Notes: a model not told the origin generated them from the letters alone. A stretch of DNA of 40,895 nt from Methanomassiliicoccales archaeon (GCA_036504055.1 DASXVU010000019.1:1-40895), one strand, 5' to 3'. Numbered from the stretch's first letter, positions 1-17,893 are shown. Numbers and translations: made by a program.

Positions 1-391
1 CGATGGTCGCCTTGCTGAGCGGCGATATTGCAGTGGCGATGATGCTGCCAGTCTCTAGGGCTGGACGGGAGGCACAGGTCTTGCATGCGGCATCCGCCGA
101 TTCGAACATACCCATGTTGTAATGGAACTCTCCGGATCTCACCTTCTCAGGCAATGGCACCATGCCGAGTGCGGATGCGCCTACCGGGCAGGCCTGCTTG
201 GCGGCCGGGACCACCAATTTCTCTCCCTTCCTCGCCCTCATGATCGATTGGCAATGCCGGAGCGGCGTTTCGGTGACCAAATAACCTTCGGGTATGGATT
301 GGCCCTTCTTGATCAGGGTGACCGCCACCGGTTCGGTCTTCAAACCGAGAATATCTACCAACTTCCTAGAAAGCTCAGCGTAGTCGCTCAT
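1..391 (-). CDS. DUF169 family protein, C-terminal part missing (runs off left edge)
   Basis: The reading frame starts at ATG 391-389 and stays open to the window edge, giving about 130 residues of an incomplete protein. It begins MSDYAELSRKLVDILGLK and contains the pattern EPVAVTLIKKG near residue 20, which matches the N-terminus of the DUF169 family (PF02596). Three further cysteine-bearing patches are visible: RHCQS near residue 45, ACPVG near 68, and ACKTCASRP near 105. DUF169 proteins are common in methanogens and anaerobes; their biochemical role is not established, though conserved cysteines suggest metal or cofactor binding. A ribosome site (AGAGGGG) lies just upstream, and a TATA-like box sits at 426-434. 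It follows the methyltransferase gene at 635-1471 after a 243-bp gap, so it probably has its own promoter. The family call is by pattern recognition only. Confidence 0.75.
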   Translation of the reverse strand, partial: MSDYAELSRKLVDILGLKTEPVAVTLIKKGQSIPEGYLVTETPLRHCQSIMRARKGEKLVVPAAKQACPVGASALGMVPLPEKVRSGEFHYNMGMFESADAACKTCASRPALETGSIIATAISPLSKATI

Positions 392-425
392 TCTTAACCC
401 CTCTTAACATTCAGAGCATTCTTGA

Positions 426-434
426 TTTATTTAA
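426..434 (-). promoter_or_regulatory. TATA-box-like element for the DUF169 gene
   Basis: On the minus strand the sequence reads TTAAATAAA, 35-43 bases upstream of the ATG at 391. This spacing would place transcription start about 10-15 bases before the start codon, leaving room for the AGAGGGG ribosome site. Inferred from position and composition only. Confidence 0.45.
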
Positions 435-454
435 CCATGTCGTTATTCAAACAT

Positions 455-477
455 CAATATTCTTATCGATAATATTG
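455..477. repeat. AT-rich inverted repeat, 7-bp arms
   Basis: CAATATT at 455-461 and AATATTG at 471-477 are perfect reverse complements with a 9-base spacer. It lies between the methyltransferase stop (635) and the DUF169 promoter (426-434). It could be an operator for the DUF169 gene or part of the 3' end of the upstream transcript. The remaining gap (392-634) shows no convincing gene. Confidence 0.3.
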
Positions 478-634
478 ACGAACATTTACCGATTTTCCGG
501 CGAACCTGCGTAACGTAATCTTAACGATCGAAATGATAAAAATGTCGATTACAAAGAGAATCGATTGTGCCATACAATTTCGCACAGCAGGCTGATGAGT
601 GTTCCGGAGATCGGGACGGACCAGACCTGTTCGA

Positions 635-1471
635 TCAAGAGATGGAACAGACCCATCTGTCATAGAACGCGTCGCGGTTGTTCTCGAACAGATCTACCTT
701 GCGGCCATTGGTGACGCACCAACCCTTTACCCTCTCCGCTTCATCCTTGGTCTCCACGGTCATAAGGGTCTCAACGGTCAGCTTGAGGGTCTCTTCGATG
801 ATCGCCCTCCATACGTACTCGTTGAAGTTGTTGATGGAACCCGCCATCAGGACCAGACCGAGCGGGGCTTTGGGAGCCAGTATGCCAGCCCTGGTCGCAT
901 CGATGCACATCGTACCCTCTGGCATAAGACGGCCCTTCATCATGCCCAGGGCCAGAAGGCCGGGATCGTTGTCGTAGGCGATCGGGATCAAGCCCAATTG
1001 TCGAAGTGCGGCGGAACCAAGACCAGACCCGCAGGCCACATCCAGGCAGCCTTGGCCGATCCTTTCTCCCCACACCTCGTTGATCAGTTCCTGCACCATC
1101 GTGCACCGCTCGGGTGAAAAGTCCTCGATCGCCGGAGGAACTTGCTGGAGAAGCTTCTCGGAGAAATGTTCCCGCATCGCGGCGGCGAACTCCGCCTTGT
1201 CGGTCTGGAATATCTCGCCGCCCAAGGCCTCGTACCGTTCGACGATCTCCACCTTCGGTCTCCTGAGGAGAAAACTGGTCGCACGCCATCCCTTCGGGGT
1301 CTTTACGGCGAAGGACAGAGGCCATTCCTCCTCGTCGATCAGCATACGGCTCTCGATGGCCTCGATGATCCTGACCTCTTCGGTGAATCGGTCATCGAGC
1401 ATTTGCTCATATGATTGCTCAAGGAAGTCCATGCCATCGAAGAGCTCGAAAAGATCGGATGCCCAGGTCAT
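635..1471 (-). CDS. Class I SAM-dependent methyltransferase
   Basis: A 278-residue protein. The glycine-rich SAM-binding motif I is clear near residue 142 (LDVACGSGLGSAALR), followed by an acidic residue at the end of the next strand (IAYDND) as expected for ribose binding. The roughly 135-residue N-terminal part is unlike a standard methyltransferase and probably recognises the substrate. Substrate is unknown: it could act on a small molecule, a protein or a cofactor. A TATA-like GCTTATAGG lies near 1502-1510 on the minus strand. The gene sits at the outer end of a one-carbon island, but nothing in the sequence ties it to corrinoid chemistry, since corrinoid methyltransferases do not use SAM. 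The fold assignment is secure; the function is not. Confidence 0.8.
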   Translation of the reverse strand: MTWASDLFELFDGMDFLEQSYEQMLDDRFTEEVRIIEAIESRMLIDEEEWPLSFAVKTPKGWRATSFLLRRPKVEIVERYEALGGEIFQTDKAEFAAAMREHFSEKLLQQVPPAIEDFSPERCTMVQELINEVWGERIGQGCLDVACGSGLGSAALRQLGLIPIAYDNDPGLLALGMMKGRLMPEGTMCIDATRAGILAPKAPLGLVLMAGSINNFNEYVWRAIIEETLKLTVETLMTVETKDEAERVKGWCVTNGRKVDLFENNRDAFYDRWVCSIS

Positions 1472-1529
1472 TCTTGATCGGACCCTGGAAGCTTTGCGCC
1501 CCTATAAGCCCATCGAATTATCCTTGTCT

Positions 1530-1811
1530 TCAAAGATATGGCAACTGCCTTCTTTCATATTCGTCTATAAGGGCCATGCGGTACTCCTTTTCAAGGGCCT
1601 CGTTGATCCCGTTGTTCTCCAGGAACCTGGTCATCAGCTCATCGGTGATCCTGTTCCTGTCCTTGAGGTGCAAACGGAACACATCCTCCATTATGTCGTC
1701 GATGCCCAACGCATCGACAAAACGGTCCTTGACCCACAGTTTGTACGAAGTCAGACCGATCCCGGGATCCCCACATTCTGCGCATTCCAGCTTCTTTTCT
1801 TCCTCTGCCAT
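1530..1811 (-). CDS. Small CxxC protein, unknown function
   Basis: A 93-residue hydrophilic, mostly helical protein with one CxxC pair (Cys10, Cys13: CAEC) at the N-terminus and an acidic, charged remainder. One pair of cysteines is not enough for a zinc ribbon unless the protein dimerises. The start is well supported: a strong ribosome site GAGGTGA lies 4 bases before the ATG, and an ATAGATATA element lies about 45 bases further up. It is placed between a SAM methyltransferase and a Nudix gene, all on the minus strand, each apparently with its own promoter. I do not recognise the family. Confidence 0.6.
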   Translation of the reverse strand: MAEEEKKLECAECGDPGIGLTSYKLWVKDRFVDALGIDDIMEDVFRLHLKDRNRITDELMTRFLENNGINEALEKEYRMALIDEYERRQLPYL

Positions 1812-1908
1812 CAGCTCACCTCGGTCGTTGGTTAGAGACGTCCCATTCTGGTCCTATATCTATACCATTCACGTACGTTGAAGATATACTGTTCGATTGA
1901 TGGACCGA

Positions 1909-2457
1909 TCAGATCCCGTCCAAGGCATCCATCGAACGCATGAACCTGATCCCGACCTGATGCAGCTCAACCATCCATTCCATCAAGCGGGGGTCGCCAA
2001 CGGAAGGGGTCAGGTCGAAGAGTCTTGCCTCATCGATCCGGTCGCTATCCAGGGGGTCAAGATCTGATGTTGCCGTTTCTGCCACGACCACGAAATACCA
2101 TCTCAGGCAGGTCATATCATTGTATAGACAGGTGATCCTTTGACATTGGGGGACCCCTAAAGGTATGATCTTTACCCCGGCCTCCTCCATCGCCACCCGG
2201 ATTGCGGCTTCGATGATCCCTTCGCTCGATCCTATCCGACCCATGGGGAGAAGCCAATCTGACGCTTCTTTTCTTTTGACGAAAACGCAGGATCCGGCCA
2301 AATTGAAAATGAGGAGGACTACCGTGCCTGAGGAATTGAGGGAACCGGTTCTCTCTGCAGGCCCCTCAATGGGCCAGACCCGGTCCACGAACGACGGATT
2401 GCCGTAAACAGCGACCAGTTCCTGCCACCGTTCATCGTCTGGCTTTTCCTCTATCAT
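1909..2457 (-). CDS. Nudix-fold hydrolase with an altered Nudix box
   Basis: A 182-residue protein. Residues 40-130 show the Nudix fold: a strand with VFVKRK, then WLLPMGRIGSSE, then the helix ending RVAMEEAGV. The family signature is G-x5-E-x7-R-E-U-x-E-E-x-G-U. Here Gly73, Glu79, Arg87, Glu91, Glu92 and Gly94 are kept, but the Glu after Arg87 is Val88. That glutamate is a metal or catalytic residue in classical Nudix enzymes, so activity may be reduced, moved to another residue, or lost. The usual substrate class is nucleoside diphosphates linked to another moiety; the particular substrate cannot be told. A TATA-like CTTTTTATCC at about 2487-2496 would give a short leader or leaderless message. 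Confidence 0.8.
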   Translation of the reverse strand: MIEEKPDDERWQELVAVYGNPSFVDRVWPIEGPAERTGSLNSSGTVVLLIFNLAGSCVFVKRKEASDWLLPMGRIGSSEGIIEAAIRVAMEEAGVKIIPLGVPQCQRITCLYNDMTCLRWYFVVVAETATSDLDPLDSDRIDEARLFDLTPSVGDPRLMEWMVELHQVGIRFMRSMDALDGI

Positions 2458-2513
2458 GCCGCATGGATGTTGGTCGGAACGAGGATAAAAAGGCTCGGTC
2501 CGAGAGAACGGAT

Positions 2514-3377
2514 TCAGATGGTGATCTCACTGCCGGAAGGCAGCATGTCGAACCCGACGAACCGGTCGGACATCATCTTCAGTGCCTCGAAACCGGTGCA
2601 ATGGGTTGGGGCGATCCGATCCACTCCCAGCGCCTTCAGCCCATCCATCGTCTTGAGGATGCGGTCCTTGCCGGCGGAGCTCAGGTGGAACCCGCCTATG
2701 ACCATGTATATCCGCTTGTCGAAGGACTTCTTTGCCTGGGTGACCACGTTCACTATGCCCGGATGGCCGCATCCGGAAACGATCACCAGGCCCTTCTTGG
2801 TCTGGATGAAGAGCGCCTGCTCCTCGTAGACCTCGTCGTTGACCGGACAACCGGGCTCTTCCTCCCTGAGGAACCGGTCCTGGACCTCGAACTTCGATTC
2901 CCGCACGATCTGGCCGGACGTCTTCACTCCCGGGACGATCTCCACGCTGGAAGAGGACAGGTTGAGCTTTGCTCGGGGCAATGCGTCGATCAGCTCTTTA
3001 GGGGCGCTTATGTCCCTCTTGGTGCCGTCTATGGCGACGGCGAAGCGCTTCGAGGTGAACAGTTTGGGATCGCCATATATCGGCACTCCGGCCTCTATCA
3101 TTGATACAAGACCGCCCATGTGATCATAGTGGCCATGGGAGATGAAGACGGCGTCGATGTCGCTTGGCCTGAAACCTAAAAGGTTGAGGTTGTGCGCGAA
3201 GACCATCTGTGATGCACCGGTATCGACCAGCACCCTCTTCCCTTCGTCGGTCTCGACGAGGATCGACAGCCCATGCTCGGAAAGGAAGTGTCGGTCAGGC
3301 CGGTCAAGGCGCTTGACCACCTTGGAATAGTTGAACGACGTGCCCGAAGTGTTGTCAACGACTGATATTATCCGCAC
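2514..3377 (-). CDS. Metallo-beta-lactamase-fold metal-dependent hydrolase (COG1237 type)
   Basis: A 287-residue protein. The MBL metal-binding motif HGHYDH is at residues 81-86, preceded by the DTGAS turn at 52-56. Later histidines occur in GCGHPG and GGFHLSS, as expected for two-metal sites. It resembles the COG1237 subgroup often annotated in methanogens as a dihydropterin-ribofuranosylaminobenzene 5'-phosphate synthase, a name I would not transfer without proof. The start is GTG at 3377, directly abutting the RamA stop codon TAA (3380-3378) with no spacer, so translation is almost certainly coupled to RamA. An AGGAG lies about 13 bases upstream inside the end of ramA. The context suggests a role beside corrinoid activation or methyl transfer, which is inference. 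Confidence 0.82.
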   Translation of the reverse strand: MRIISVVDNTSGTSFNYSKVVKRLDRPDRHFLSEHGLSILVETDEGKRVLVDTGASQMVFAHNLNLLGFRPSDIDAVFISHGHYDHMGGLVSMIEAGVPIYGDPKLFTSKRFAVAIDGTKRDISAPKELIDALPRAKLNLSSSSVEIVPGVKTSGQIVRESKFEVQDRFLREEEPGCPVNDEVYEEQALFIQTKKGLVIVSGCGHPGIVNVVTQAKKSFDKRIYMVIGGFHLSSAGKDRILKTMDGLKALGVDRIAPTHCTGFEALKMMSDRFVGFDMLPSGSEITI

Positions 3378-5027
3378 TTAATGGTCATCTCCTCTTCTTA
3401 CCACCGCGAGTTTGCTGAACTGATAAACGTTCTCTGGACAGACTGTCTCACAATGCTTGCAGGCGGTGCCCAGACAGTACTCGGTCGCGATCCGGACCTT
3501 GAACTTGTCCTCACCCATCGGCAATATCTTCAGTGCGCGCTCCGGACACTCAAGCTCGCATTTCTTGCATCCGATACAGCCCTCGAAGGACCCGATGAGA
3601 TAGACCCCGACATCTTCCAATGTCTTGAGGCCCCCTTCCCCGATGACCGGGATATCGCTGCTCACTATGCGCAGCATCTCCTTCGGACGAACTATATCTG
3701 GCATGGGTCGATATCCTCCTTGTTCCAGCAAGGTGTTGAACAGTTCGAAGGGCATGCCCTCATCCCAGTAGGCCAGCTCATTGACGTAATGATCCTCGAA
3801 AACCTTGCTGGTCGCGAACATTATGTGTTTGGAGGCGATGGAGTTGGCCACGTCCTGCATATGGTCCAGTCCGTTGTCGTCGACCAGGATCTCATACGCC
3901 ATCATCAGGGAGGTGTTTCCCGCCTGCACCGTTCTTTCCAGCACCCGCGGCACCAGGCCCACGGTCTGCGCCTTGAGCGGGTCCACGTAGGTGCCCGATG
4001 CCCCTGCCAGGTACATGGTCTTGACCTCCGCATCATCTATGCCGACGTCTTGGATGAGCGTCCGGTGACCGGCTCGGATGGCGCCCATCGCCTTTCCCGC
4101 CTCCTTTAGGTCGTGCTCCGTGAAGGTTATCCCATTCATCATGTGGATCATATGGTCCGGAGTGTCGATCCGAGGCAGTTTGATGATGCCGGTTTCCAGA
4201 CCGACCGCCACAGCGGCCACGACCCCTGTGCCGGTGATGCCCCGCGCCCTCAGGTTCTCGATGATCTTGACCTGGTTGTTCCTTGGCCCCACCAGCGCCG
4301 CCTTGCGCGGATGGAGGTGCTCGTCCAGCACATAGTTGTACCACATGTCGTCCGGCCCGATGGCCAGGTCAGAGACCGCTTCTGGTGCCGCCAGCATTCC
4401 GAACTTGATCGACTGGCCCTCCATGGCCGGTCCTGCCGCGGCCGAACCCGTGTAAAGCTCCCCATTATGGTAAAGGCCCATCTCGGCGTTGGTGCCGTAA
4501 TCAGTGACCATACAGGTCTCCTTCTTCTCCAGGAGCTTGGTCTTGATGATCATCGCCAGGGCATCGGCCCCGATCTCGTGACGGATCGAGGGCGGGATCC
4601 GAACATCCGCGGTCTGCCTCACTGACTTGAGGCCTAATTCCTCTGCCTTGATGACGTGGGCCCGACGTTCCGGGACCTTGATCTTGAGCCGACTGAGAAG
4701 AGATTGTCCGGCGAATGCCAGGTCCCTGATCTCAATGTTCTCGAACATGGACAGCTGGGCGGGATTGCCACAGACCGCGATCCTTTCGATATCCTCCGGC
4801 CTCGCCCCATGCAGTTCGATCAGATGGTCGACCGTCTCCATGATGATGCTGTGCCCGACCTCATTACCGTTCTCCATCCAGAAATGCAGATGGTCCATGA
4901 TGTTGGCCCCAGGGAGCGGGTGCCTCATGGTGATGGAGGTGGAAACGATCTTGCCTTTCTTTGAAAGATCCACCAGGTGCGAACGGTAGCCGCTTGTTCC
5001 CAGGTCTAGAGCTACACCGTATGCCAT
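3378..5027 (-). CDS. ramA: RamA-type corrinoid protein reductive activator (ATP-dependent, two 4Fe-4S)
   Basis: A 549-residue protein. The N-terminus has the ASKHA phosphate loop (ALDLGTSGYRSHLVD, residues 7-21), and the core carries further DUF4445/RACo-type motifs such as TDYGTNAEMGL. The C-terminus has two 4Fe-4S motifs: Cys484, 487, 490, 494 and Cys518, 523, 526, 530. This N-to-C arrangement matches RamA of Methanosarcina, which uses ATP to reduce Co(II) to Co(I) in methylamine corrinoid proteins. Bacterial RACo proteins have an N-terminal ferredoxin instead, so RamA is the better fit. A TATA element (GATAAATAG) at 5055-5063 predicts a nearly leaderless transcript. The MBL hydrolase gene follows with zero spacing. 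The likely client is the corrinoid protein at 10544-11182. Confidence 0.93.
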   Translation of the reverse strand: MAYGVALDLGTSGYRSHLVDLSKKGKIVSTSITMRHPLPGANIMDHLHFWMENGNEVGHSIIMETVDHLIELHGARPEDIERIAVCGNPAQLSMFENIEIRDLAFAGQSLLSRLKIKVPERRAHVIKAEELGLKSVRQTADVRIPPSIRHEIGADALAMIIKTKLLEKKETCMVTDYGTNAEMGLYHNGELYTGSAAAGPAMEGQSIKFGMLAAPEAVSDLAIGPDDMWYNYVLDEHLHPRKAALVGPRNNQVKIIENLRARGITGTGVVAAVAVGLETGIIKLPRIDTPDHMIHMMNGITFTEHDLKEAGKAMGAIRAGHRTLIQDVGIDDAEVKTMYLAGASGTYVDPLKAQTVGLVPRVLERTVQAGNTSLMMAYEILVDDNGLDHMQDVANSIASKHIMFATSKVFEDHYVNELAYWDEGMPFELFNTLLEQGGYRPMPDIVRPKEMLRIVSSDIPVIGEGGLKTLEDVGVYLIGSFEGCIGCKKCELECPERALKILPMGEDKFKVRIATEYCLGTACKHCETVCPENVYQFSKLAVVRRGDDH

Positions 5028-5054
5028 GGAATCATGGCAGGAATTGTATACTGT

Positions 5055-5063
5055 CTATTTATC
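5055..5063 (-). promoter_or_regulatory. TATA box of the ramA-MBL operon
   Basis: Minus-strand GATAAATAG lies 28-36 bases upstream of the ramA ATG, the right distance for an archaeal promoter with a very short leader. The same 144-bp gap carries GATATATCAA at about 5098-5107 on the plus strand, which could serve the divergent URO-D gene. Confidence 0.55.
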
Positions 5064-5171
5064 AACTATCTCGAAATTGCCTACTTCCCGGAATGACTGG
5101 ATATATCAACAATCGTTCCATCGGTGAAGGCCACAATAGACTTTTATCGGCCACACTGCGTAGGTCTGTCC

Positions 5172-6212
5172 ATGAGCCCGAAACAAAGGTTCCATGCGGC
5201 CCTGGATCTTCGACCGGCAGACCGGGTCCCTGTATTCTATCAGCACCTCGGCGCAGCCAAATGGATCCTGGAATCCTCTGGGCTCAGGATATATGATGGT
5301 TTTCATGATCCGGAGGTCTTCTCCAGGCTGGCCCTGGAAGCCTACCGCCTGTATGGCTATGACACGGTGATGGCCGGTTGGGGGGACCTCTTGGTGGAGG
5401 CACAAGCTCATGGTATGGAGTGGAAATTCCCGGAGAAGGACTTCTATCCGCGGGCGGTCAAGTACCGTTCTCTCACAGAAGCGGATGGATTGGCTCCGGT
5501 CGAACCCCTGAAGGACAGGTTCTGGTCCGTGCCGATCAAGGCCGCGAGCAGGATGGTGGAGAAGGTGGGGGAGGAGGTTGCCGTCGTCGGGTGCACCAAC
5601 GCCCCGATGCTGGTCGTCTATGAGACATTTGGAATGGAAACGGTCCTGATGGCGATGTTCTCGGACCCTGGACCGATCGACAAAGCTCTGGGTACGGTCA
5701 CTGATTCCTTGCGCCTTTACGGAGATGCGATCCGTGCGGCCGGAGTTGATTCGGTCTTTATCGACTCCAGCTCGGCCGGCATGGAGATGGTGAGCAAGGA
5801 GATGTATGAGGCCCATGACCGCCCTTGTCTCGGCTCGCTGATGGAAACGTTCCATCGACAGGGGTTGAGGACGATCCTGCATAACGATTCATCGATGCCG
5901 CTTTGGCTGTCGCAGATGGACCTTCTTCCGGACGCTCTGCATCTGCACTTGAAGAACGTCGATCTCCAGACCCTGATAGACAAGGTCAAAGGACGGACCT
6001 GCCTGTTCGCCGGGATCGATCACCAGGAACTGCTGTTCAAACGCACTCCCGAGGAGATATCAGGGGCGGTGGAGGGTTTCCTAAGCATGTGGGGCGATAC
6101 GCCAGGCGTGGTCATAGCGCCGGGTTGCGAGCTGCCATACAAGACGCCGAAGGAGAACATAAAAGCCCTGAAGGACGCGGCGATCAAGTTCAGCCACCGC
6201 AAAAGTCCCTGA
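5172..6212 (+). CDS. URO-D-fold methyltransferase-like protein with altered zinc site
   Basis: A 346-residue protein from ATG 5172, which fits the family start (MSPKQRFHAALDLRPADRVP); an open frame extends upstream to 5124 but without family similarity. It is a TIM-barrel member of the uroporphyrinogen decarboxylase / MtaA superfamily, ending with the usual APGCELPYKTPKENI block. In MtaA/MtbA enzymes zinc is held by a His-x-Cys pair and a distal Cys. Here the first site reads His237-Asn-Asp239, and only the distal Cys319 is kept. Either zinc is bound through Asp, or the protein no longer activates a thiol. It may therefore be the substrate-side (demethylating) methyltransferase of this island, or a decarboxylase-like enzyme. 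It is divergent from ramA and convergent with the canonical MtaA/MtbA gene. Confidence 0.8.
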   Translation: MSPKQRFHAALDLRPADRVPVFYQHLGAAKWILESSGLRIYDGFHDPEVFSRLALEAYRLYGYDTVMAGWGDLLVEAQAHGMEWKFPEKDFYPRAVKYRSLTEADGLAPVEPLKDRFWSVPIKAASRMVEKVGEEVAVVGCTNAPMLVVYETFGMETVLMAMFSDPGPIDKALGTVTDSLRLYGDAIRAAGVDSVFIDSSSAGMEMVSKEMYEAHDRPCLGSLMETFHRQGLRTILHNDSSMPLWLSQMDLLPDALHLHLKNVDLQTLIDKVKGRTCLFAGIDHQELLFKRTPEEISGAVEGFLSMWGDTPGVVIAPGCELPYKTPKENIKALKDAAIKFSHRKSP

Positions 6213-6253
6213 TTGATATTCGAGTCGTTCAAGAAGTTAAAAAAATCGTTGAT

Positions 6254-6271
6254 AGGGGGATCTCTCCCCCT
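6254..6271. terminator. Hairpin between convergent genes
   Basis: AGGGGGA (6254-6260) and TCCCCCT (6265-6271) form a perfect 7-bp stem with a 4-base loop, between the stop of the URO-D gene (6212) and the stop of the MtaA/MtbA gene (6279). A run of As (6239-6245) precedes it on the plus strand, which is a T-run for minus-strand transcripts. It probably ends both transcripts. Confidence 0.55.
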
Positions 6272-6278
6272 TAAGAAT

Positions 6279-7289
6279 TTACTCTTTGGCGCCCTTGACC
6301 ATCGCCTGGATATTGGCCAGAGGCACACGTGCCGCCAGTCCGCATCCCGGTGCGATCAGGTTGAAGCCGGCTTCCTTGCAACGCTTCCCTGCAGCCTCGC
6401 ACTCTTCCGGTGTGCCCTGCAGCAACGGCCTGACCACTCCGACGTTTCCGACGAGAGCGACCCTTCCGCCTACGAGCCTGACCGCTTCTTCCGGCTCGAC
6501 CTTCTCCTCGATCGACAATCCGTTCACGCCGGTGTCGATCATGTGGTCCAGCAGGACGGTGGTGTTGCCGCAGATGTGCAGGACGGTCTTGGTCTCCCCG
6601 ACGTCTTCGAAGCATGCCTTGATGGACGGCTTGCTGTACTGGTCGAACAGTTCGGCGGACATCATGTCAGTTGACGACGACGGGTCGCTCATGACTATGA
6701 CATCTGCGCCGGCGGCTGCCAGTGCGGTACAGTAGGCCTTCTCGATCTTGGTCGCGATGTCCACGAACTTCTGCACGGCGTCCGGGTTGACGATCATCCA
6801 CAACAGCAGGTTCTCGGTTCCGACCAGGTGTCCGGCGATTGTGACCGGTCCGGTGGTACCGACAACGATCGGGTATTCCTTTCCGACCTTTGCCTTGGCG
6901 ATCTTTACTGCCTCGATGACGGTCTTCATCCTGCCCAGTGAGGTTATGTTGTCCGGGATCACTACCTCGGAGTCCTCATTGAACGCGTGCTTCTTGACCA
7001 TCGGGGTCCTGTCCTGGCCACCCAGGTTTACGACACAACCCATGATCTCAGCCTCGACGGTAAGGCAGTATGGCATCCTGACGGACTCTAGACCCAATAC
7101 CTTCGGGACACCCATGGCCAGTTCGGCCATCTTATGGGCGTCGGTGTGGGCTTCGGGCCAGTATACCTTGACCGCGTCCATCACATCAACAGTTGCGCTC
7201 TGCGTGAAGCATACAACTGGAGGCCTGTCAACTTCCTTCAAATCAAGAGCGGCGAGAACGCGCTCCCTCGGAGTCATTTTGCTAGCCAC
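6279..7289 (-). CDS. Methylcobamide:CoM methyltransferase (MtaA/MtbA type)
   Basis: A 336-residue protein of the MtaA/CmuA branch of the URO-D family. It carries the zinc motif His238-Ile-Cys240 followed by Cys316 in LIAPGCGL, the ligand set known to bind and activate the coenzyme M thiol. The enzyme moves the methyl group from a methylated corrinoid protein to coenzyme M. Whether it prefers methanol (MtaA), methylamine (MtbA) or methylthiol corrinoid partners cannot be decided from sequence alone. The start is GTG at 7289, with a strong GGAGG site 7 bases upstream; an in-frame ATG follows four codons later. Its promoter contains a 14-bp palindrome (7308-7321). The corrinoid protein at 10544-11182 is the obvious local partner. 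Confidence 0.9.
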   Translation of the reverse strand: MASKMTPRERVLAALDLKEVDRPPVVCFTQSATVDVMDAVKVYWPEAHTDAHKMAELAMGVPKVLGLESVRMPYCLTVEAEIMGCVVNLGGQDRTPMVKKHAFNEDSEVVIPDNITSLGRMKTVIEAVKIAKAKVGKEYPIVVGTTGPVTIAGHLVGTENLLLWMIVNPDAVQKFVDIATKIEKAYCTALAAAGADVIVMSDPSSSTDMMSAELFDQYSKPSIKACFEDVGETKTVLHICGNTTVLLDHMIDTGVNGLSIEEKVEPEEAVRLVGGRVALVGNVGVVRPLLQGTPEECEAAGKRCKEAGFNLIAPGCGLAARVPLANIQAMVKGAKE

Positions 7290-7307
7290 TAAATTCCCTC
7301 CAATAAC

Positions 7308-7321
7308 ATCTTAAATAAGAT
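7308..7321 (-). promoter_or_regulatory. Palindrome over the TATA region of the MtaA/MtbA gene
   Basis: The plus strand reads ATCTTA-AA-TAAGAT, a perfect 6-bp inverted repeat. On the minus strand it contains the TATA-like TTATTTAAGA, 19-32 bases upstream of the GTG start. A dimeric regulator binding here would block TBP, so a repressor site is plausible. No regulator gene lies next to it. Confidence 0.45.
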
Positions 7322-7367
7322 ATTCGTCCGCATTATCTAGATTATATTACTTCAATGTTTCTCCGGG

Positions 7368-9323
7368 TCAGATTGGGTCCCCGGTGGCCCTGGCCCGAAT
7401 CTCCGTCCAGTTGGAAGTGGGGGTGGTGGTATTTGAGCCCGGCGCGAAACGCTTCTCATCGACGTCGACCATGACCTCGACGTTCTTCGCTCCTGCGGCC
7501 ACCGCCCTTCCTTTGACATACTCGCATGCCACCTCTTTGGCCTTCTCGATCGCCTCCTCCCGATGGTGGAACTCCAACGGATCGGCGAACGGTGTGAAGA
7601 CCCAGTATTTGAAGTCCCTGGGATAGACCTGGATGGATATCATCTCCGACACCTTGCTGCATACCGCTCCGACTGCGTTCCCCACATCGTGGTTCGGAGG
7701 GATGATGACCTTTACGTTCATCCTCTTCTCCAGTTCGGGTACGAACACGTAGGCTGGCGCCCCGAGCCCCACTATGGGCCGGTCAAGGGAGGCCTGTATG
7801 GACATGGTACGGAAACCGGCCGCCCCCAAGGTCGCCTTGATGAGATAGTCCAGGGCCCGCGACGGCACGATGTCGCCCGCCTCGTCAGAGATTATCTTCT
7901 TGATCACCTCGCCTCCGATCATGGTGACCATGACATCCATGAAGTTCTCGATGAAATGGTCCACCGTGACCCCTGCCAGGTTGGAGAATATCTCCACTCC
8001 CTCTCTGGAGGCCTGTACGTCACCTGGGGTGTAGATCCCTTTCACATGCATGACATCGGTCGGAGTGAGCCCGGTCTGAACGATGAAACCCTTGGCCTTT
8101 AAAGATTTGAGAGTCTCGAGCACATAGTATAGCTCGGGCAGGCCTTCGTTCGCCTCGTTCAATGTGCTTACCTTGTTCTCCTTTAGGAAATTATACACCA
8201 GGCGGTCCTCATGGCTCAGCTTGGAAGTGTCCCTTTCATAGACCATATAATAGGTGGTCTGCCTGCTGAGCCGCAGCTTGTCCAGGATAGCGGGGCTCAT
8301 CTTGGAAGCAACTGCCAGGGGCATGACCCGTTCAGGCCCTATATCCAGATGACCATAGCGATCCACCTGCATATCGGAATCCCCTCCAAGACCGCTGGTC
8401 CAGATATCGATGGCCCGCACCCTGGTCCTCCAATTCCCGACCGAGGCGCCTTCCCGGTTGATTCGGGGAAATCCCTTGTCCAGATATGCTATGTCGGTGG
8501 ATGTGCCGCCTATGTCCAGCACGATGCAGTTCTCCTGCTTGGACAGCAGCCTTCCTCCCATCAGGCTGGCCGCCGGACCGGACAGAATGGTGTCCACCGG
8601 TCTTCCCCGGGCGACCGAGATGTTCATCAGCGATCCGTCACCTTTGTACACCATTATCTGACCCTTGATCCCCCGCTTCTCCATGGAAAGTTCCACGCTG
8701 CTCAGGAAATCCCCGATGATCGGTATCAGCTTGGCGTTCAATACCGCAGTGATCGTCCTTTCCTTGATGCCGAGGGAGGTGGTAAGGTCATGGCCGGTCA
8801 CGGTGAGCATGTTCGCCTTCTCCAAGATCGCCTTCCGGGCGCGTTCCTCGTGATCCGGATTGTATACGCTGAAAATACTGGATATGGCTATGGCATCGAC
8901 CTTGTTGGCCATCGATGCTATCGCCTTGTCCAAGGCCGCCACGTCCAGAGGCTGGTGCTCATACCCCCTTACGGTGTGACCGCCCTCGACCGTCTCGATT
9001 ATGGTTGTCCCCATGTCCCATTCCCGATCCGGGGACCAGCCAATGCAGATAAGACCCACCTGACCGCCTTTGCCGGTCAGGATCGAGTTGGTGGCCAGCG
9101 TGGTGGAAAGCCCCACTATCTTGATCTCGTCCACTTCAAACTTGCCCGAAGCGATGACCCCGTCGACCGCCCCCAATAGACCTATGGATAGATCCTGATA
9201 GGTTGTGGGAGACTTCGCCTTCGTCAGGACCTCCATGGTATCCATGTCGATGACCGCCGCATCGGTGAACGTTCCTCCGGTGTCGATCCCCAGCCCCAAG
9301 GTCCTTTTTTCTCCAGGTTCCAT
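7368..9323 (-). CDS. HyuA-like hydantoinase/oxoprolinase-family ATPase
   Basis: A 651-residue protein from ATG 9323; a longer frame reaches 9395, but GGGAG lies 9 bases before ATG 9323 and family similarity begins there (EKRTLGLGIDTGGTFTDAAV). The N-terminal GIDTGGTFTD is the ASKHA phosphate motif of HyuA/OplahA; a second phosphate loop occurs at CIVLDIGGTSTDIAY. The HyuB partner usually found beside true hydantoinases is absent. Lone HyuA-like proteins are common in methylotrophic archaea, where some are annotated as one-carbon pathway proteins; their reaction is mostly unproven. It lies between the CoM methyltransferase and the corrinoid protein on the same strand, so a role in methyl or corrinoid metabolism is a fair guess. 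Confidence 0.83.
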   Translation of the reverse strand: MEPGEKRTLGLGIDTGGTFTDAAVIDMDTMEVLTKAKSPTTYQDLSIGLLGAVDGVIASGKFEVDEIKIVGLSTTLATNSILTGKGGQVGLICIGWSPDREWDMGTTIIETVEGGHTVRGYEHQPLDVAALDKAIASMANKVDAIAISSIFSVYNPDHEERARKAILEKANMLTVTGHDLTTSLGIKERTITAVLNAKLIPIIGDFLSSVELSMEKRGIKGQIMVYKGDGSLMNISVARGRPVDTILSGPAASLMGGRLLSKQENCIVLDIGGTSTDIAYLDKGFPRINREGASVGNWRTRVRAIDIWTSGLGGDSDMQVDRYGHLDIGPERVMPLAVASKMSPAILDKLRLSRQTTYYMVYERDTSKLSHEDRLVYNFLKENKVSTLNEANEGLPELYYVLETLKSLKAKGFIVQTGLTPTDVMHVKGIYTPGDVQASREGVEIFSNLAGVTVDHFIENFMDVMVTMIGGEVIKKIISDEAGDIVPSRALDYLIKATLGAAGFRTMSIQASLDRPIVGLGAPAYVFVPELEKRMNVKVIIPPNHDVGNAVGAVCSKVSEMISIQVYPRDFKYWVFTPFADPLEFHHREEAIEKAKEVACEYVKGRAVAAGAKNVEVMVDVDEKRFAPGSNTTTPTSNWTEIRARATGDPI

Positions 9324-9381
9324 AGAAGAATACTCCCTGTTATGATGAGGGTAAAAAGGAGCAAGAAGGTCAATAAGGTTT

Positions 9382-9606
9382 CTAGAACGATTCACGAACC
9401 CTCATAGTGATTGCTGGCGGGATGAGGGGATCAGTAATAAGGCCGCCATGCAGGACCCGCGCCTCATCCTGTCCGCTATCCCCCCCGGAAGGCCCACATC
9501 GAGACCATGGCAGGACCACGAGTATCGGCTGGACGCGTGCGCGGCCGAACTTCGCCGGATTGCTGCCGACCCCTGACCTGACCACCCTGGCGGACAATGC
9601 AGACAT
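9382..9606 (-). CDS. Doubtful hypothetical ORF in a 460-bp gap
   Basis: The gap from 9324 to 9783 has no well-supported gene. The best candidate is this 74-codon frame on the minus strand. Its codons show strong G/C at third positions like the neighbours, and the same frame stays open upstream to a TGA near 9695, but it has no ATG, GTG or TTG in that extension and no ribosome site. A second minus frame (9402-9668) begins with similarly gene-like codons and the two overlap, which would fit a frameshifted, decaying gene. I do not recognise either product. Confidence 0.25.
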   Translation of the reverse strand: MSALSARVVRSGVGSNPAKFGRARVQPILVVLPWSRCGPSGGDSGQDEARVLHGGLITDPLIPPAITMRVRESF

Positions 9607-9783
9607 GATCGCGCTCCGATACCGGTTATCAGGCCGAAGACCGTCACGAAGCCGTCCAACCTCATCATCGATATAAAAAAATCTATCTAATTCAATTCAT
9701 GATGGATTTGTATGGGTCGATCTTTCCTCGCTGCATAATTGATTCGGTTCTCCTTTTATAGCTCGCTACGGATTGCCATCGCC

Positions 9784-10506
9784 ATGCTCCTGATGTGCCA
9801 TCTTTTCATAGGCCTGGTGATAGGGATGGTCATCTTCCATTTCCTGGAGTATCGGATGGTCATCATCCTTTCTGCCTTGGGCAGCATATTACCGGACCTG
9901 ATAGACAAGCCGTTGGGGCACATCATCCTGACCGGCTCCATTGACTTCGGCAGGATCTACGCCCACAGCGGACTGTTCTTCACCGCCATATTGGTCCTGG
10001 GGGTTGCATATCGAAGGAAGAAGGGTTCGTGGATCATGATGGCATTGGGGGCAGGCCTTCTTTCCCATCTCGTTCTGGACTCCATGTGGGAGTTGCCGGT
10101 GACCGTATTCTATCCGTTCTTGGGCGATTTTGGTCTGCATCACTTTCCAAACTATGTCGGGGATTCGTTCACAAAGGAGATCGAGAGCACCTATGAATGG
10201 ACTTTCGGGGTCACTGCACTTGCGATGCTGATGTTCATCTGCCAAGACCGGCTGGGTCGAATGAGGGTGACGGCTGTGAAGTATATTCCCCAGGTGGTGA
10301 AGAGCCTGTCATTGCTCCTGATGTTGATGGGGATGGTGGCGATCATCTATGCGGCAATGTCCGCATACAATCCGTTTTCAGGGGACTCCGCACCGGACCA
10401 GAACCTCATTCTCGGACTATCTGCCTCGGTGGGAGGGATGATAGCATATCTTGTTTGGAGAGACATGAGAAAACCGGTAGGTACAGAGCACTTGCTGGAT
10501 CAATGA
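9784..10506 (+). CDS. YdjM-like membrane-bound metal-dependent hydrolase (PF04307 type)
   Basis: About 240 residues from ATG 9784. The family pattern is visible: ILPDLIDKPLGH near residue 40, IYAHSGLFF near 60, and LLSHLVLDSMWE near 100, giving a set of conserved Asp and His residues close to the membrane. There are about five to six hydrophobic segments. The substrate of this family is unknown. A TTG-start extension to 9739 is possible, but a TATA-like CTTTTATAG at 9753-9761 lies inside it and would put transcription start at or just before ATG 9784, suggesting a leaderless message; ATG 9793 is a further option. It is the only plus-strand gene between the HyuA-like and corrinoid genes and is probably an independent unit. 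Confidence 0.75.
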   Translation: MLLMCHLFIGLVIGMVIFHFLEYRMVIILSALGSILPDLIDKPLGHIILTGSIDFGRIYAHSGLFFTAILVLGVAYRRKKGSWIMMALGAGLLSHLVLDSMWELPVTVFYPFLGDFGLHHFPNYVGDSFTKEIESTYEWTFGVTALAMLMFICQDRLGRMRVTAVKYIPQVVKSLSLLLMLMGMVAIIYAAMSAYNPFSGDSAPDQNLILGLSASVGGMIAYLVWRDMRKPVGTEHLLDQ

Positions 10507-10510
10507 CCTT

Positions 10511-10522
10511 ATAAAAAAAGGA
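10511..10522 (-). terminator. T-tract terminator after the corrinoid gene
   Basis: The minus strand reads CCTTTTTTTAT about 22 bases past the stop of the corrinoid gene, between two convergent genes. T-rich tracts like this end transcription in many archaea without a hairpin. Confidence 0.4.
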
Positions 10523-10543
10523 AGAGATTTGGAAAGTGAAGGA

Positions 10544-11182
10544 TTATTGCTTCAACAGTTCCGTAACGACCTTGACCGCTTCGTTGGCGTCGTACGCCCA
10601 ACCGTCGCAATGGATCTGGTTGGCGAATTCCCTGGAGGTAGCGCCGCCGCCGATTATGGTCTTGATCTTCGGCTTCAGGTTGCCTTCCTTGGCCATCCTC
10701 TCGATCTCCTTCATTCCAGCCAGGGTAGGCGTCATGAGGGTGGAGGTCGCGATGATGTTTACGTTCTCGGCCTTGGCCTTCTCGACGATGTTCTTGACCG
10801 GGATATCCCTTCCCAGATCGAAGATCGTGAGCCCTGAGCCGGTCAACATCGCCTTCACGATGTTCTTGCCGATGTCATGAACGTCTCCTTCAACGACGGC
10901 CATGACTACCCTTCCCTGAGCTCCAGCGGAGGTCTTGTCTAGCTTCGGCAGGGCAACATCGAGCGCCTGATATAGGGTCTGAGCAGAGAGAAGAACTTGG
11001 GGTAGGAAGTACTCCTTCTTCTCGTACTTTTGCCCAACGATCTCCATCGCCTTGTTCAATCCTTCGAAGATGATTACCTTGGCGGTTATTCCTTCTGCAA
11101 GGGCCTTCTCTGCCAATGGCTTGGCCTCTTTTATCTTGCCCTTTACAACAACATCAATCAAATTCTGCAGTGTCTCACTCAT
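10544..11182 (-). CDS. Methyltransferase cognate corrinoid protein (MtmC/MtbC/MttC/MtaC type)
   Basis: A 212-residue protein with the usual two domains. Residues 1-85 are the helical cap domain (B12-binding 2 type). Residues 90-212 are the Rossmann-like cobalamin domain with Asp100-Val-His102-Asp-Ile-Gly105, where His102 is the lower cobalt ligand, plus Ser147-Thr-Leu149 and Gly178-Gly-Gly180 lining the nucleotide tail. It would accept a methyl group from a substrate methyltransferase and pass it to the CoM methyltransferase at 6279-7289, with RamA keeping it in the Co(I) state. No methylamine or methanol methyltransferase gene is adjacent, which is unusual since such corrinoid genes normally sit beside one. 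GGAGG lies 7 bases before the ATG. Confidence 0.93.
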   Translation of the reverse strand: MSETLQNLIDVVVKGKIKEAKPLAEKALAEGITAKVIIFEGLNKAMEIVGQKYEKKEYFLPQVLLSAQTLYQALDVALPKLDKTSAGAQGRVVMAVVEGDVHDIGKNIVKAMLTGSGLTIFDLGRDIPVKNIVEKAKAENVNIIATSTLMTPTLAGMKEIERMAKEGNLKPKIKTIIGGGATSREFANQIHCDGWAYDANEAVKVVTELLKQ

Positions 11183-11231
11183 GCACTATCCTCCCAAACG
11201 GAGAAAGAATTGAAACATCCGATGCCTATGG

Positions 11232-11243
11232 TTTATATTAAAA
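11232..11243 (-). promoter_or_regulatory. TATA box of the corrinoid protein gene
   Basis: The minus strand reads TTTTAATATAAA, 50-61 bases upstream of the ATG. Transcription would start near 11207, leaving a leader of about 25 bases that holds the GGAGG site. Confidence 0.6.
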
Positions 11244-11251
11244 GCCTTTTA

Positions 11252-11270
11252 TGGATGGATGTACCATCCA
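11252..11270. repeat. Inverted repeat directly upstream of the corrinoid promoter
   Basis: TGGATGG (11252-11258) and CCATCCA (11264-11270) are perfect 7-bp arms with a 5-base spacer. They lie 9 bases upstream of the TATA box on the minus strand, the position expected for an archaeal activator site at or above the BRE. The site is about 40 bases from the radical SAM stop and could also act in its 3' end. Confidence 0.45.
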
Positions 11271-11311
11271 CAATTCGTATGATACAATCGTTAAGTCTTC
11301 CCAGATAGCTC

Positions 11312-12403
11312 TTACACCTGAATCGGTAAGGACTTACCACATCGAGGACAGCATCCATCGACCGTCAGATTCTGTACCTTAGCGAAGGTCGGACAGAAAC
11401 GACTTACCTGCTCCTTCTTTATGAATATCTTCTCCGTCGTCTCTTCTGACCTGCGTGAGACCACCAGGGCGCCACAGCTTGGACACAGGGTATCCTGGCC
11501 CTCTCCTGTCACTCCCCCTAGGTAAACGTATCTCAAACCTAATCCATGCAGAAGACGACGGACCTCATGCAAACAGGAGATCTCCGGAGGGTTCAGTTCC
11601 GACAATCGATATGCCGGTTGGAATCGGAAGAGGTGGACCGGCGTGTCCCTCCCCAGCTCATTCACCACCCAATCCCCGAAATTAACCAGCATTGTCCGGT
11701 CATCGGTCCATTCGGGTATCAATGGATAGGCAAGCTCGAGGTGTATACCCCTTTCTTTGACATCCTTGCATGTTTCCAACACTGGAGCCAGTTCTGCTCC
11801 GCAAAGTTTACGATAGATCCTCTCGTCGAATCCCTTGATGTCCACCTTGACGACATCCACATTCTCAAGAAGCTCTTCCCTGGCCTTGGGTTCGATGTAT
11901 CCGTTGGTGTTCAACAGGTTGAACAGTCCCTTCGAATGAGCCAGGCCTGACACGTCGATTATATATTCTGACCATACCACTGGATCGTTGAACGTCCATC
12001 CGATTCCGTTGACCTTCTTTTCCAATGCGATATGGACCAGTTCCTCTGGCGGGACATATTGTGAGGGGATGTCGTCGGATCTAGAACGGGCCATCACCGC
12101 ATTCTGGCAGAACCCGCAGTCAAGGTTGCATCCGAAGGTGCCTATCGAATAAAGCATCGCTCCGGGACGATAGTGGAAAATCGGTTTCTTTTCGACCGGA
12201 TCGACCGCTGTGGCGCATATACGACCGTAGGTCAAGGTCACCAGTTTGCCAGAACGGTTGGCCCGCGCGTTACAGAATCCGACCGATCCATCTGGTATGC
12301 GGCACCGGCGCGGACATAGCGAACATTCTACGATCTTGCCGTCCCCATGCCACCATCTTGCCTGATGGACTTGTGACGATACGTCAGTAGTCGTCATCCT
12401 CAT
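11312..12403 (-). CDS. Radical SAM enzyme, AmmeMemoRadiSam / PflA-activase type
   Basis: A 363-residue protein. The radical SAM cluster motif is Cys92-x3-Cys96-x2-Cys99 (GCNLDCGFC). Upstream is a second cysteine set (Cys27, 30, 34, 44) typical of this family, and the C-terminus ends in a zinc-ribbon-like set with CPSC and CPRC. This layout fits the AmmeMemoRadiSam-system radical SAM protein, related to pyruvate formate-lyase activases. Its usual partners AMMECR1 and Memo are not in the window. The start at ATG 12403 overlaps the end of the small zinc-ribbon gene by 20 bp; a second ATG at 12397 is also possible. It lies next to the corrinoid gene on the same strand, but a separate promoter serves the latter. 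Confidence 0.85.
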   Translation of the reverse strand: MRMTTTDVSSQVHQARWWHGDGKIVECSLCPRRCRIPDGSVGFCNARANRSGKLVTLTYGRICATAVDPVEKKPIFHYRPGAMLYSIGTFGCNLDCGFCQNAVMARSRSDDIPSQYVPPEELVHIALEKKVNGIGWTFNDPVVWSEYIIDVSGLAHSKGLFNLLNTNGYIEPKAREELLENVDVVKVDIKGFDERIYRKLCGAELAPVLETCKDVKERGIHLELAYPLIPEWTDDRTMLVNFGDWVVNELGRDTPVHLFRFQPAYRLSELNPPEISCLHEVRRLLHGLGLRYVYLGGVTGEGQDTLCPSCGALVVSRRSEETTEKIFIKKEQVSRFCPTFAKVQNLTVDGCCPRCGKSLPIQV

Positions 12404-12500
12404 CCTGCGATGCGCCGCAGTTTGGGCACTTTTTCTGATTCTTTTTCATGACCGAACCGCACACGATGCATTCTGACACTCCATGACCTCGTTCCTCCAT
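12384..12500 (-). CDS. 38-residue zinc-ribbon microprotein
   Basis: A short frame from ATG 12500-12498 to TGA 12386-12384. It encodes two CxxC pairs, Cys11-x2-Cys14 and Cys25-x2-Cys28, separated by 10 residues (CIVC and CPNC), followed by an acidic tail (SQDEDDDY). This spacing is that of a complete single zinc ribbon, as in small archaeal zinc-ribbon proteins. It overlaps the radical SAM start by 20 bp, so the two are translationally coupled. A TATA-like TAAAATAA lies at about 12533-12540 on the minus strand. It is too short for most gene finders; the cysteine spacing and coupling are the reasons to accept it. Confidence 0.72.
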   Translation of the reverse strand: MEERGHGVSECIVCGSVMKKNQKKCPNCGASQDEDDDY

Positions 12501-12598: not shown

Positions 12599-14515
12599 GT
12601 GTGGGACTGGAATGGTGTTCCGGTTGACATGCAGGTCCCTACCTTGTACCTATTCCTTTTGATCACGGTCCCTACCTTGGGGGGCCTGTTGTGCATGACC
12701 CGAAGGCGGGGGACCTCACCCTGGGTGCTCGTGGCTGGGACATCGATGATCACGGTGGTGCTGGCGCTCGGCCTTCTGCTGTACATGGCGACCAAAGGCT
12801 TGGAATCTATCGCGGTTAACGCAGACGAACTGTTCCCCATGGAATGGGCCATAATAGCTCTGGACCTTATGCTGATGGCATATTTCGTCTACGTGGGGGT
12901 CAGGGACAAGAGCCGTTGGATCGTGGCTTTCTCATTCTTGCAGATCGTTCCGATGGTCATCTTCCAATCGATGGTGATGGGGAAAACCGCGGATCCGGTC
13001 ATTTTCGCCGATTATCTGAGCGTCGTGATGATGCTCATCACCTCACTGGTCGGATCGGTCATCATCCTTTACGCGGTCAGGTACATGAAGGGCGATGGAA
13101 ACCAGCCCCGTTTCTTCGCCGTCATGCTGATCTTCGTGGGTGCCATGAACGGCGCCGTCTTCAGCAATGATCTTCTGTGGCTCTTCTTCTTCTGGGAGGT
13201 CACCACGCTGACCTCCTTCCTGCTGATCGGACACAATAAGACCGATGAGGCAAAACGGTCCGCCCGGATAGCCGCCGAGATCACTCTAGGCGGAGGCGTG
13301 CTCCTGCTCGCATCCATCATCCTGTCCTATTACTACTTCAACACCCTGACCATCTCTGCTCTCCCGTCGGGAACCAGCATCGTGGGGCTGCAGTTATTGC
13401 CGTTTGCCCTGATGGCTGTAGCGGCTTTCACCAAATCGGCCCAGGTCCCGTTCCAGAGATGGTTGCTGGGAGCCATGGTCGCGCCTACACCAGTTTCCGC
13501 ACTGCTTCATTCCGCCACGATGGTTAATCTGGGAGTGTATTTCCTATTGCGGCTCTCGCCAAATCTCGTGGGCCAGGATATCATTTCCTGGATCGTCGGT
13601 ATCATAGGGGCCACCTCGTTCCTCGCAACCTCCTTGCTGGCCATCGCCCAAAGCAACTCAAAACGCGTTCTGGCCTACTCTACCATCGGAAATCTGGGCC
13701 TGATCATCGTCTGTGTAGGATTGAATACGCCGCTGTCGATCACCGCGGGGATAATCATCCTCATCTTCCATGCCATCTCAAAGGCCATCCTATTCATGTC
13801 CGTCGGTGTGGTCAAAGAGGAGACCGGTTCCGAGGACCTTGACGTTATGGCATATCTACGGGACAGGATGCCTTTCATTACCGTTTCGATCTTCGTTGGG
13901 GTGTTCATGCTCATGCTTCCGCCCTTCGGACTTTTCGCAGGCAAGTGGATCGTCTCGGAAGCAGCTGCCGGTTTTCCGTTCATCTCTATCCTACTTGGTG
14001 TGGGCTTCGCCGGTACAATTGTCTATTATGGTAAGTGGCTAGGCCGCCTTTTCGAAACAGGTCCTAGGGTCTCTAGATTACCGGCATTGAGTCAGAAGTT
14101 GCCGGTTCTATACAAGTACACCATCGGCGCGCTTCTCGGGGCAGGCATAGTCCTTTCCCTGGCCATAGGCCAGGTGATAACATATCTAATTGACCCATAT
14201 CTCTCGCTCCACTATGCTCCGGCAGTGAGCGGCTCTTCACTGGGCTTGAACACGGAATTTGGGTCATTCCCCGCATTCTACTTCCTATTGATCATAGGGG
14301 TCTTGTTCTTGGGATTCGGTTTCCTGCTCAAATTAGACAAAAAGGAGCTCACCCAGGCATATGCCGGCGGTGAGGATCCGGTATTTGACCTGGGAGGTTT
14401 CTATTATCTGGACGAAAAGGTGGAAGGGCACTGGAACAAGATAATTCTGGCCCTTGCCTCGGTACTGCTCGCCGTGCTATTATTGATGCCTGTGGCATTG
14501 GAGGTGTTCAGTTGA
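12599..14515 (+). CDS. echA: Ech hydrogenase membrane subunit EchA (NuoL/HyfB-like antiporter)
   Basis: A 638-residue polytopic membrane protein with about 15 hydrophobic segments. It carries the proton-antiporter signature of complex I NuoL: the glutamate in FFWEVTTLTSF, the lysine in AFTKSAQVPFQ, and ALLHSATMVNLGVY. It would pump protons or sodium ions, driven by electron flow from ferredoxin to protons. The listed start is GTG; an ATG at 12629 begins MQVPTLYLFLLITVP, which looks more like a native membrane N-terminus, and an AATAATAT element at 12591-12598 would fit transcription starting just before it. First gene of an A-B-C-D-E-F operon in the same order as Methanosarcina ech. Its stop overlaps the TTG start of echB by 4 bp. 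Confidence 0.92.
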   Translation: MWDWNGVPVDMQVPTLYLFLLITVPTLGGLLCMTRRRGTSPWVLVAGTSMITVVLALGLLLYMATKGLESIAVNADELFPMEWAIIALDLMLMAYFVYVGVRDKSRWIVAFSFLQIVPMVIFQSMVMGKTADPVIFADYLSVVMMLITSLVGSVIILYAVRYMKGDGNQPRFFAVMLIFVGAMNGAVFSNDLLWLFFFWEVTTLTSFLLIGHNKTDEAKRSARIAAEITLGGGVLLLASIILSYYYFNTLTISALPSGTSIVGLQLLPFALMAVAAFTKSAQVPFQRWLLGAMVAPTPVSALLHSATMVNLGVYFLLRLSPNLVGQDIISWIVGIIGATSFLATSLLAIAQSNSKRVLAYSTIGNLGLIIVCVGLNTPLSITAGIIILIFHAISKAILFMSVGVVKEETGSEDLDVMAYLRDRMPFITVSIFVGVFMLMLPPFGLFAGKWIVSEAAAGFPFISILLGVGFAGTIVYYGKWLGRLFETGPRVSRLPALSQKLPVLYKYTIGALLGAGIVLSLAIGQVITYLIDPYLSLHYAPAVSGSSLGLNTEFGSFPAFYFLLIIGVLFLGFGFLLKLDKKELTQAYAGGEDPVFDLGGFYYLDEKVEGHWNKIILALASVLLAVLLLMPVALEVFS

Positions 14516-17409: not shown

Positions 17410-17414
17410 TCCAT

Positions 17415-17885: not shown

Positions 17886-17893
17886 GTGCTTCG

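Follow-up and report, generated by a model that had tools for sequence, protein, structure and literature searches.

A probable mcr-proximal hub for corrinoid activation and coenzyme M transfer in Methanomassiliicoccales, and its divergent URO-D-superfamily protein

Donor enzymes of the URO-D superfamily and mlp clusters have already been described (PMC10418091, PMC13222342, PMC8630106), with His-Cys-Cys at the metal site of S-methyltransferases and carboxylate substitutions in O-methyltransferases (PMC10418091). In the order Methanomassiliicoccales, M. luminyensis and 'Ca. M. alvus' have methanogenesis markers clustered around mcr (PMC4153887), and mtrAH is known from environmental members (PMC6147122, PMC10804542). 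Here we analyzed a contig of a Methanomassiliicoccales archaeon (GCA_036504055.1, DASXVU010000019.1:1-40895; genome 2.66 Mb, 99.9% complete). The window is this entire contig of 40,895 nucleotides (C19 below), and its first part holds an island of one-carbon genes that includes a divergent URO-D-superfamily gene. The island is very probably an mcr-proximal hub of the order for activation and coenzyme M (CoM) transfer. It overlaps in part with the marker clusters named above, and a literature search found no account of the whole hub.

The original prediction, made from sequence, had named RamA, a methyltransferase corrinoid protein, a MtaA/MtbA-type CoM methyltransferase, a HyuA-like ATPase, a DUF169 protein and the divergent URO-D protein. 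All were located, with open reading frames intact except that of DUF169, which is cut by the contig end. Two island genes had been overlooked, encoding an AmmeMemoRadiSam-type radical S-adenosylmethionine (SAM) enzyme and a putative SAM methyltransferase. The genes are:

2..391, minus strand: first 130 amino acids (aa) of a DUF169 protein, truncated by the contig end (Pfam DUF169, 107 bits)
635..1471, minus strand: conserved 278-aa protein, putative SAM methyltransferase with a SAM-binding-like motif, DVACGSGLGSAAL
2514..3377, minus strand: metallo-beta-lactamase-fold protein (Pfam), immediately downstream of RamA and in the same position in relatives
3378..5027, minus strand: RamA, ATP-dependent reductive activase of corrinoid proteins (TIGR04270, 710 bits, cut-off 500)
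5124..6212, plus strand: divergent URO-D-superfamily protein, predicted methyltransferase (Pfam URO-D, 139 bits)
6279..7289, minus strand: MtaA-type methylcobamide:CoM methyltransferase with a HIC...CG zinc motif
7368..9395, minus strand: HyuA-like (hydantoinase A family) ATPase (Pfam), same position in relatives
10544..11182, minus strand: corrinoid protein with both B12-binding domains (B12-binding_2 cap and B12-binding) and DVHDIG
11312..12403, minus strand: AmmeMemoRadiSam-type radical SAM enzyme, AmrS (TIGR04337, 285 bits, cut-off 220)

The rest of the DUF169 gene is found at the terminus of contig C5 (70433-70699 of 70700, minus strand), in an orientation that fits, and a query with the C-terminal half of the DUF169 protein from a relative matched the genome at this terminus only. 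The source genome contains mcrA, and past the DUF169 remainder C5 continues with lrp-ycaO-tfuA-mcrBDGA, where the names lrp, ycaO and tfuA were assigned from sequence and position. The ends of C5 and C19 do not overlap, and about 14 DUF169 residues are missing between them. Because the split gene and the gene order in relatives agree, we infer that the two contigs adjoin. A MtaB, MtmB or MttB gene just past the left edge, which the original prediction had allowed for, is not there, and the mcr operon stands in that place instead.

We surveyed 147 genomes of the order from six families (f1 to f6), 74 of them rated high-quality. The order mcrAGDB-tfuA-ycaO-lrp-DUF169-...-RamA-URO-D-MtaA-...-corrinoid, or long parts of it, was present in G135, G130, G126, G127, G143, G145 and G142. 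Gene order is shared by f1 and f5 genomes and likewise by f2, f3, f4 and f6, and RamA, MtaA and the corrinoid gene lie by mcr-linked genes in six of six families, a recurrence that shows the grouping is not due to chance. RamA homologues (58-77%) occur at the same locus throughout the order, a MtaA homologue was found in 133 of the 147 genomes (73 of the 74 high-quality ones), and the corrinoid protein was found in 68 of 147. What had been proposed as an orphan island of a new pathway is thus mostly the core methanogenesis neighborhood of the order, adjacent to mcr and recurring in six families.

No MtaB, MtmB, MtbB, MttB or MtrH gene lies between DUF169 and a gene block beginning at 12599, in agreement with the earlier remark that no substrate enzyme was visible. 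Of the two explanations offered for this, location of the substrate enzyme elsewhere holds as far as known substrates are concerned. By targeted searches and reading of selected stretches, the source genome encodes MtaB twice (on C3 and split over the contig gap C22/C8), MtmB twice on C21, and MtbB on C31, with each MtmB and MtbB gene reading through one in-frame TAG; MttB was not found in this genome. Corrinoid genes adjoin the MtaB, MtmB and MtbB loci on these other contigs. The hub lacks enzymes for methanol, mono- and dimethylamine because these are encoded elsewhere, with corrinoid genes of their own. In relatives, a protein of 455-470 aa is encoded between the MtaA and corrinoid genes; it was considered as a substrate methyltransferase and rejected, as it had no Pfam match and its one other match, TsoY-like, was weak (E 2e-4, far under cut-off). 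Its gene is not in the window.

Gene content and order are observed, and from family assignment we infer the activities of the hub enzymes. RamA would reduce corrinoid proteins to Co(I), and MtaA (methyltransferase 2) would pass the corrinoid-borne methyl group to CoM for the MCR encoded next to it, while methanol, mono- and dimethylamine would enter via the enzymes encoded elsewhere. It is most likely that the RamA and MtaA of the island serve those enzymes as a shared hub, which accounts for most of the missing-substrate-enzyme puzzle.

The C-terminal end of RamA carries two [4Fe-4S] motifs, with Fer4 matches at residues 481-534. The MtaA-type protein scored above the subfamily cut-offs (PRK06252, 369 bits against 244; TIGR01463, 331 bits against 235) and below those for the MtaA equivalog (365 versus 400 bits) and MtbA (258 versus 600). 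Its HxC...C zinc ligands are present, with HIC...PGCG as in M. mazei MtaA (4ay7), to which it is 42% identical. The corrinoid protein has the two Pfam domains and the DxHxxG motif (DVHDIG) of methyltransferase corrinoid proteins in general, but fell below the cut-off of TIGR02370 for MtmC/MtbC/MttC of the pyrrolysine system (180 versus 215 bits). MtgC/MtbC models scored it at 153-166 bits and MtaC models at 126-130 bits, a comparison drawn between profile-model scores.

The URO-D protein, which probably starts at the conserved Met at 5172, differs from its MtaA-type neighbor. Its metal motif is His253-Asn-Asp255 ... Cys335-Glu336, and with His-Asp-Cys rather than His-Cys-Cys and 90.5 bits against the 235 of TIGR01463 it is not classed with the soluble CoM methyltransferases (SCMT); nor is it a hemE equivalog (31.7 versus 303 bits), and it scored far under the cut-off of every specific model. 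The predicted structure (predicted local distance difference test, 90.5) had its best PDB match in MtaA (4ay8/4ay7; template modeling (TM) score 0.83-0.90). Members of the family are 43-55% identical and have strong motifs. Their metal motif is HN(C/D)...(C/S)E, which is shared with the URO-D proteins of corrinoid operons (HNC...CE) and differs from HIC...CG in MtaA, and the second metal ligand switches between Cys and Asp, having changed a minimum of four times on the tree. By phylogeny the family groups with the corrinoid-operon URO-D proteins (94/93), outside the MtaA-containing clade. A by-eye check of the table for a strict link between Asp at the metal site and MtrAH loss failed, since G129, G132, G134 and G135 have both. 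A single-sequence scan of the genome contigs with the URO-D query gave no matches. Contig C39 carries a paralogue of the window protein (L085, 7620-8636; 36%) in which the metal-site His and Cys are lost (SNC..GE).

Within the order, 34 genomes encode an orthologue of the URO-D protein (E<=1e-90), and a search of 390 genomes from the phylum gave no match outside the order at E<=1e-35. Of these 34, 31 also have the corrinoid protein, and at least 21 genomes have the URO-D gene next to RamA, MtaA or both. The original prediction had named homologues without a link to corrinoid genes as a result that would speak against a role in demethylation; most are linked, while five loci (L064, L065, L066, L068 and L102) had no such link in the stretch read.

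The relatives of the corrinoid protein also point to the URO-D superfamily. By automated reading we counted 62 of 83 corrinoid loci, omitting 21 where simple open reading frame picking had lost or relabeled the corrinoid gene, and split them by identity to the window protein into 40 island-type and 22 more distant loci. The latter span Nitrososphaeria, Bathyarchaeota, Wukongarchaeum, second loci of Methanomassiliicoccales and three more corrinoid genes of the source genome, which lie 2-22 bp from a URO-D gene (C16, C47 and C1). In 18 of the 22 a URO-D-superfamily gene is no more than 300 bp away. A gene of the MtaB/MtmB type lies within 3 kb in just three, and in each of these it comes with a corrinoid gene of its own. 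Across the 40 island-type loci, no MtaB, MtmB or MtbB gene lies within 3 kb. Because of these two patterns, the nearest reading is that the corrinoid subfamily of the hub works with URO-D-superfamily methyltransferases.

Two of the source-genome loci have further features. On C16 (L075, 1278-3081) the corrinoid gene, 49% identical to that of the island, is followed after 2 bp by a URO-D gene with HNC...CE, and this pair is found again, often together with HyuA, at second loci in other members of the order. On C1 (L081, 4755-9205) a corrinoid gene, a URO-D gene (HIA...CE) and a gene for a 937-aa protein lie in a row; the last combines an AcsV/RamA-like activase domain with a histidine kinase, and the three together look like a corrinoid- or methyl-sensing kinase system.

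The second explanation in the original prediction, that the URO-D protein demethylates an unknown methyl donor, is favored by its motif, its phylogenetic placement and the gene associations of the corrinoid relatives, though not proved. Our preferred reading, at about even odds, is that it is the donor-side methyltransferase for the hub corrinoid protein. In that role it would bind a methylated compound at its His/Asp/Cys(/Glu) metal site and methylate the Co(I) corrinoid protein of the hub, after which MtaA would form methyl-CoM. Because a carboxylate replaces a cysteine, the metal-site rule (PMC10418091) leads away from thiols, and the change suggests a donor atom harder than sulfur, for example in an O-methyl compound. 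The full proposal is more doubtful and is put forward only tentatively: an mcr-linked, order-specific entry to methanogenesis, in which a His-Asp-Cys(-Glu) URO-D protein may move methyl groups from an unrecognized donor, probably not a thiol, to a dedicated corrinoid protein, from which the adjacent MtaA would deliver them directly to CoM.

Several observations weigh against the donor-side role. The corrinoid protein occurs without the URO-D protein in 37 genomes, where it must therefore have another partner. A close URO-D gene forms an apparent operon with MtrA and MtrH genes in two genomes, suggesting a different partner in some lineages. In the window, the URO-D gene lies on the strand opposite to RamA and MtaA. 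The grouping with corrinoid-operon proteins depends on long branches, and an approximately unbiased test with the two families alone as a clade (p 0.36) permits it but does not show it.

The operons with MtrA and MtrH are the starting point for the alternative that survives best, which we nevertheless consider unlikely. Here the URO-D protein would belong to a soluble MtrA-MtrH system (methyl-tetrahydrofolate <-> MtrA corrinoid <-> CoM), as its partner on either the CoM or the pterin side, and would have been retained or given a new task in the source lineage after MtrAH loss. Second URO-D copies with MtrA-MtrH occur in G020 and G023; in the latter (L060) the apparent operon is uroD-mtrA-mtrH with a 4 bp overlap of uroD and mtrA, and the order is similar in the former (L058). 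MtrA was found in 21 of 21 other f1 genomes, with the MtrA-MtrH pair inside the island in those relatives that were read, and a soluble methyl-tetrahydrofolate (CH3-H4F):CoM role of mtrAH has been proposed for Methanomassiliicoccales (PMC6147122). However, neither MtrA nor MtrH was found in the source genome, which keeps the URO-D protein, and the two are uncoupled elsewhere, with MtrA but no URO-D protein in f2, f3 (G006 excepted) and f4, and the reverse in six f5 genomes as well as G110 and G111. The apparent operons (L060, 7372-10113; L058, 4617-10489) lie beside HyuA, with mtaCB a few kb off.

It is improbable that the corrinoid protein and MtaA form a MtsB/MtsA-like pair, in which MtaA would both demethylate a methylated thiol and methylate CoM, the URO-D protein being unrelated. 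The two genes are close in six of six families even without a URO-D gene, both half-reactions are attributed to MtsA (Tallant 2001, as cited in PMC4153887), and mtsAB is annotated in the relative MXMAG1 (PMC7824343). Against this, the 42% identity of the island protein to M. mazei MtaA compares with about 30% among M. barkeri MtaA, MtbA and MtsA (PMC10418091), and MtsB reportedly forms the sister clade of MtaC (PMC9635834), whereas the island corrinoid protein scores higher with MtgC/MtbC models. The sequence evidence thus leans to MtaA over MtsA. Similarly poor prospects attach to a pure housekeeping hub, with a corrinoid protein taking methyl groups from enzymes elsewhere and a regulatory or vestigial URO-D protein without methyl transfer: the roles of MtaA and RamA are general, the stretches read around five URO-D loci contain no corrinoid neighbors, and the C39 relative, having lost its metal ligands, shows that members can decay, but the window protein retains His253, Cys335, Glu336 and the fold, its family is well conserved, and the mapped substrate enzymes have corrinoid genes of their own.

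Other genes of the neighborhood are retained as well. The 635-1471 protein matched no family model in a profile search, has homologues (37-52%) at the same position of the mcr/hub locus in relatives and, lying between the mcr operon and the hub, is a candidate MCR-modifying enzyme. HyuA-like ATPases are recurrent companions of several corrinoid/URO-D loci in the order, and an AmrS-type gene adjoins the corrinoid gene in several families. After the island follows a complex-I-like or group 4 hydrogenase-like gene block (12599-18241), which also adjoins in G135 (L055) and G134 (L056).

Soils, sediments and guts all pose the question of which methylated compounds sustain Methanomassiliicoccales. 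Across the order, activation and CoM transfer are physically linked with the mcr operon, and the hub explains the missing substrate enzyme. The HN(C/D)...CE URO-D proteins are a small, testable family, found only in this order among the genomes searched, and a candidate for a new methyl substrate. If the donor-side role is true, the notable aspect is the location beside mcr, the kind of enzyme itself being known.

Among characterized proteins, M. mazei MtaA (4ay7/4ay8) is like the 6279-7289 protein in type. It shares the fold of the URO-D protein, which differs in its HND...CE motif, its 23-24% identity and its position outside the SCMT clade. The MtsA/MtsB methylthiol:CoM methyltransferase needs no separate donor enzyme, but the 6279-7289 protein resembles MtaA, and by model scores the corrinoid protein appears closer to MtbC/MtgC than to MtaC, the reported sister of MtsB. 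The soluble MtrAH of environmental Methanomassiliicoccales (PMC6147122, PMC10804542) belongs to the same island in f1 relatives and is absent from the source genome. MtvB, OdmB, VdmB, MtoB and CdmB, the URO-D-superfamily O-demethylases and dehalogenases to which we liken the URO-D protein by description, act on the donor side, feed a corrinoid protein and have a metal site that is either missing or altered by a carboxylate substitution; they pass the methyl group on to a pterin through MtrH-type proteins, unlike in the route proposed for the hub. The type 1 mlp clusters of Kountz et al. (PMC10418091), defined by Mlp2 and Mlp3 orthologues and compared here by gene content and ligand pattern, likewise combine URO-D-superfamily proteins with one corrinoid protein and a Ram activase and lack a donor enzyme of the MtaB/MtmB/MttB type. 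Those clusters are mostly bacterial, nearly always His-Cys-Cys and linked to S or Se compounds, whereas the hub adjoins mcr and carries His-Asp-Cys.

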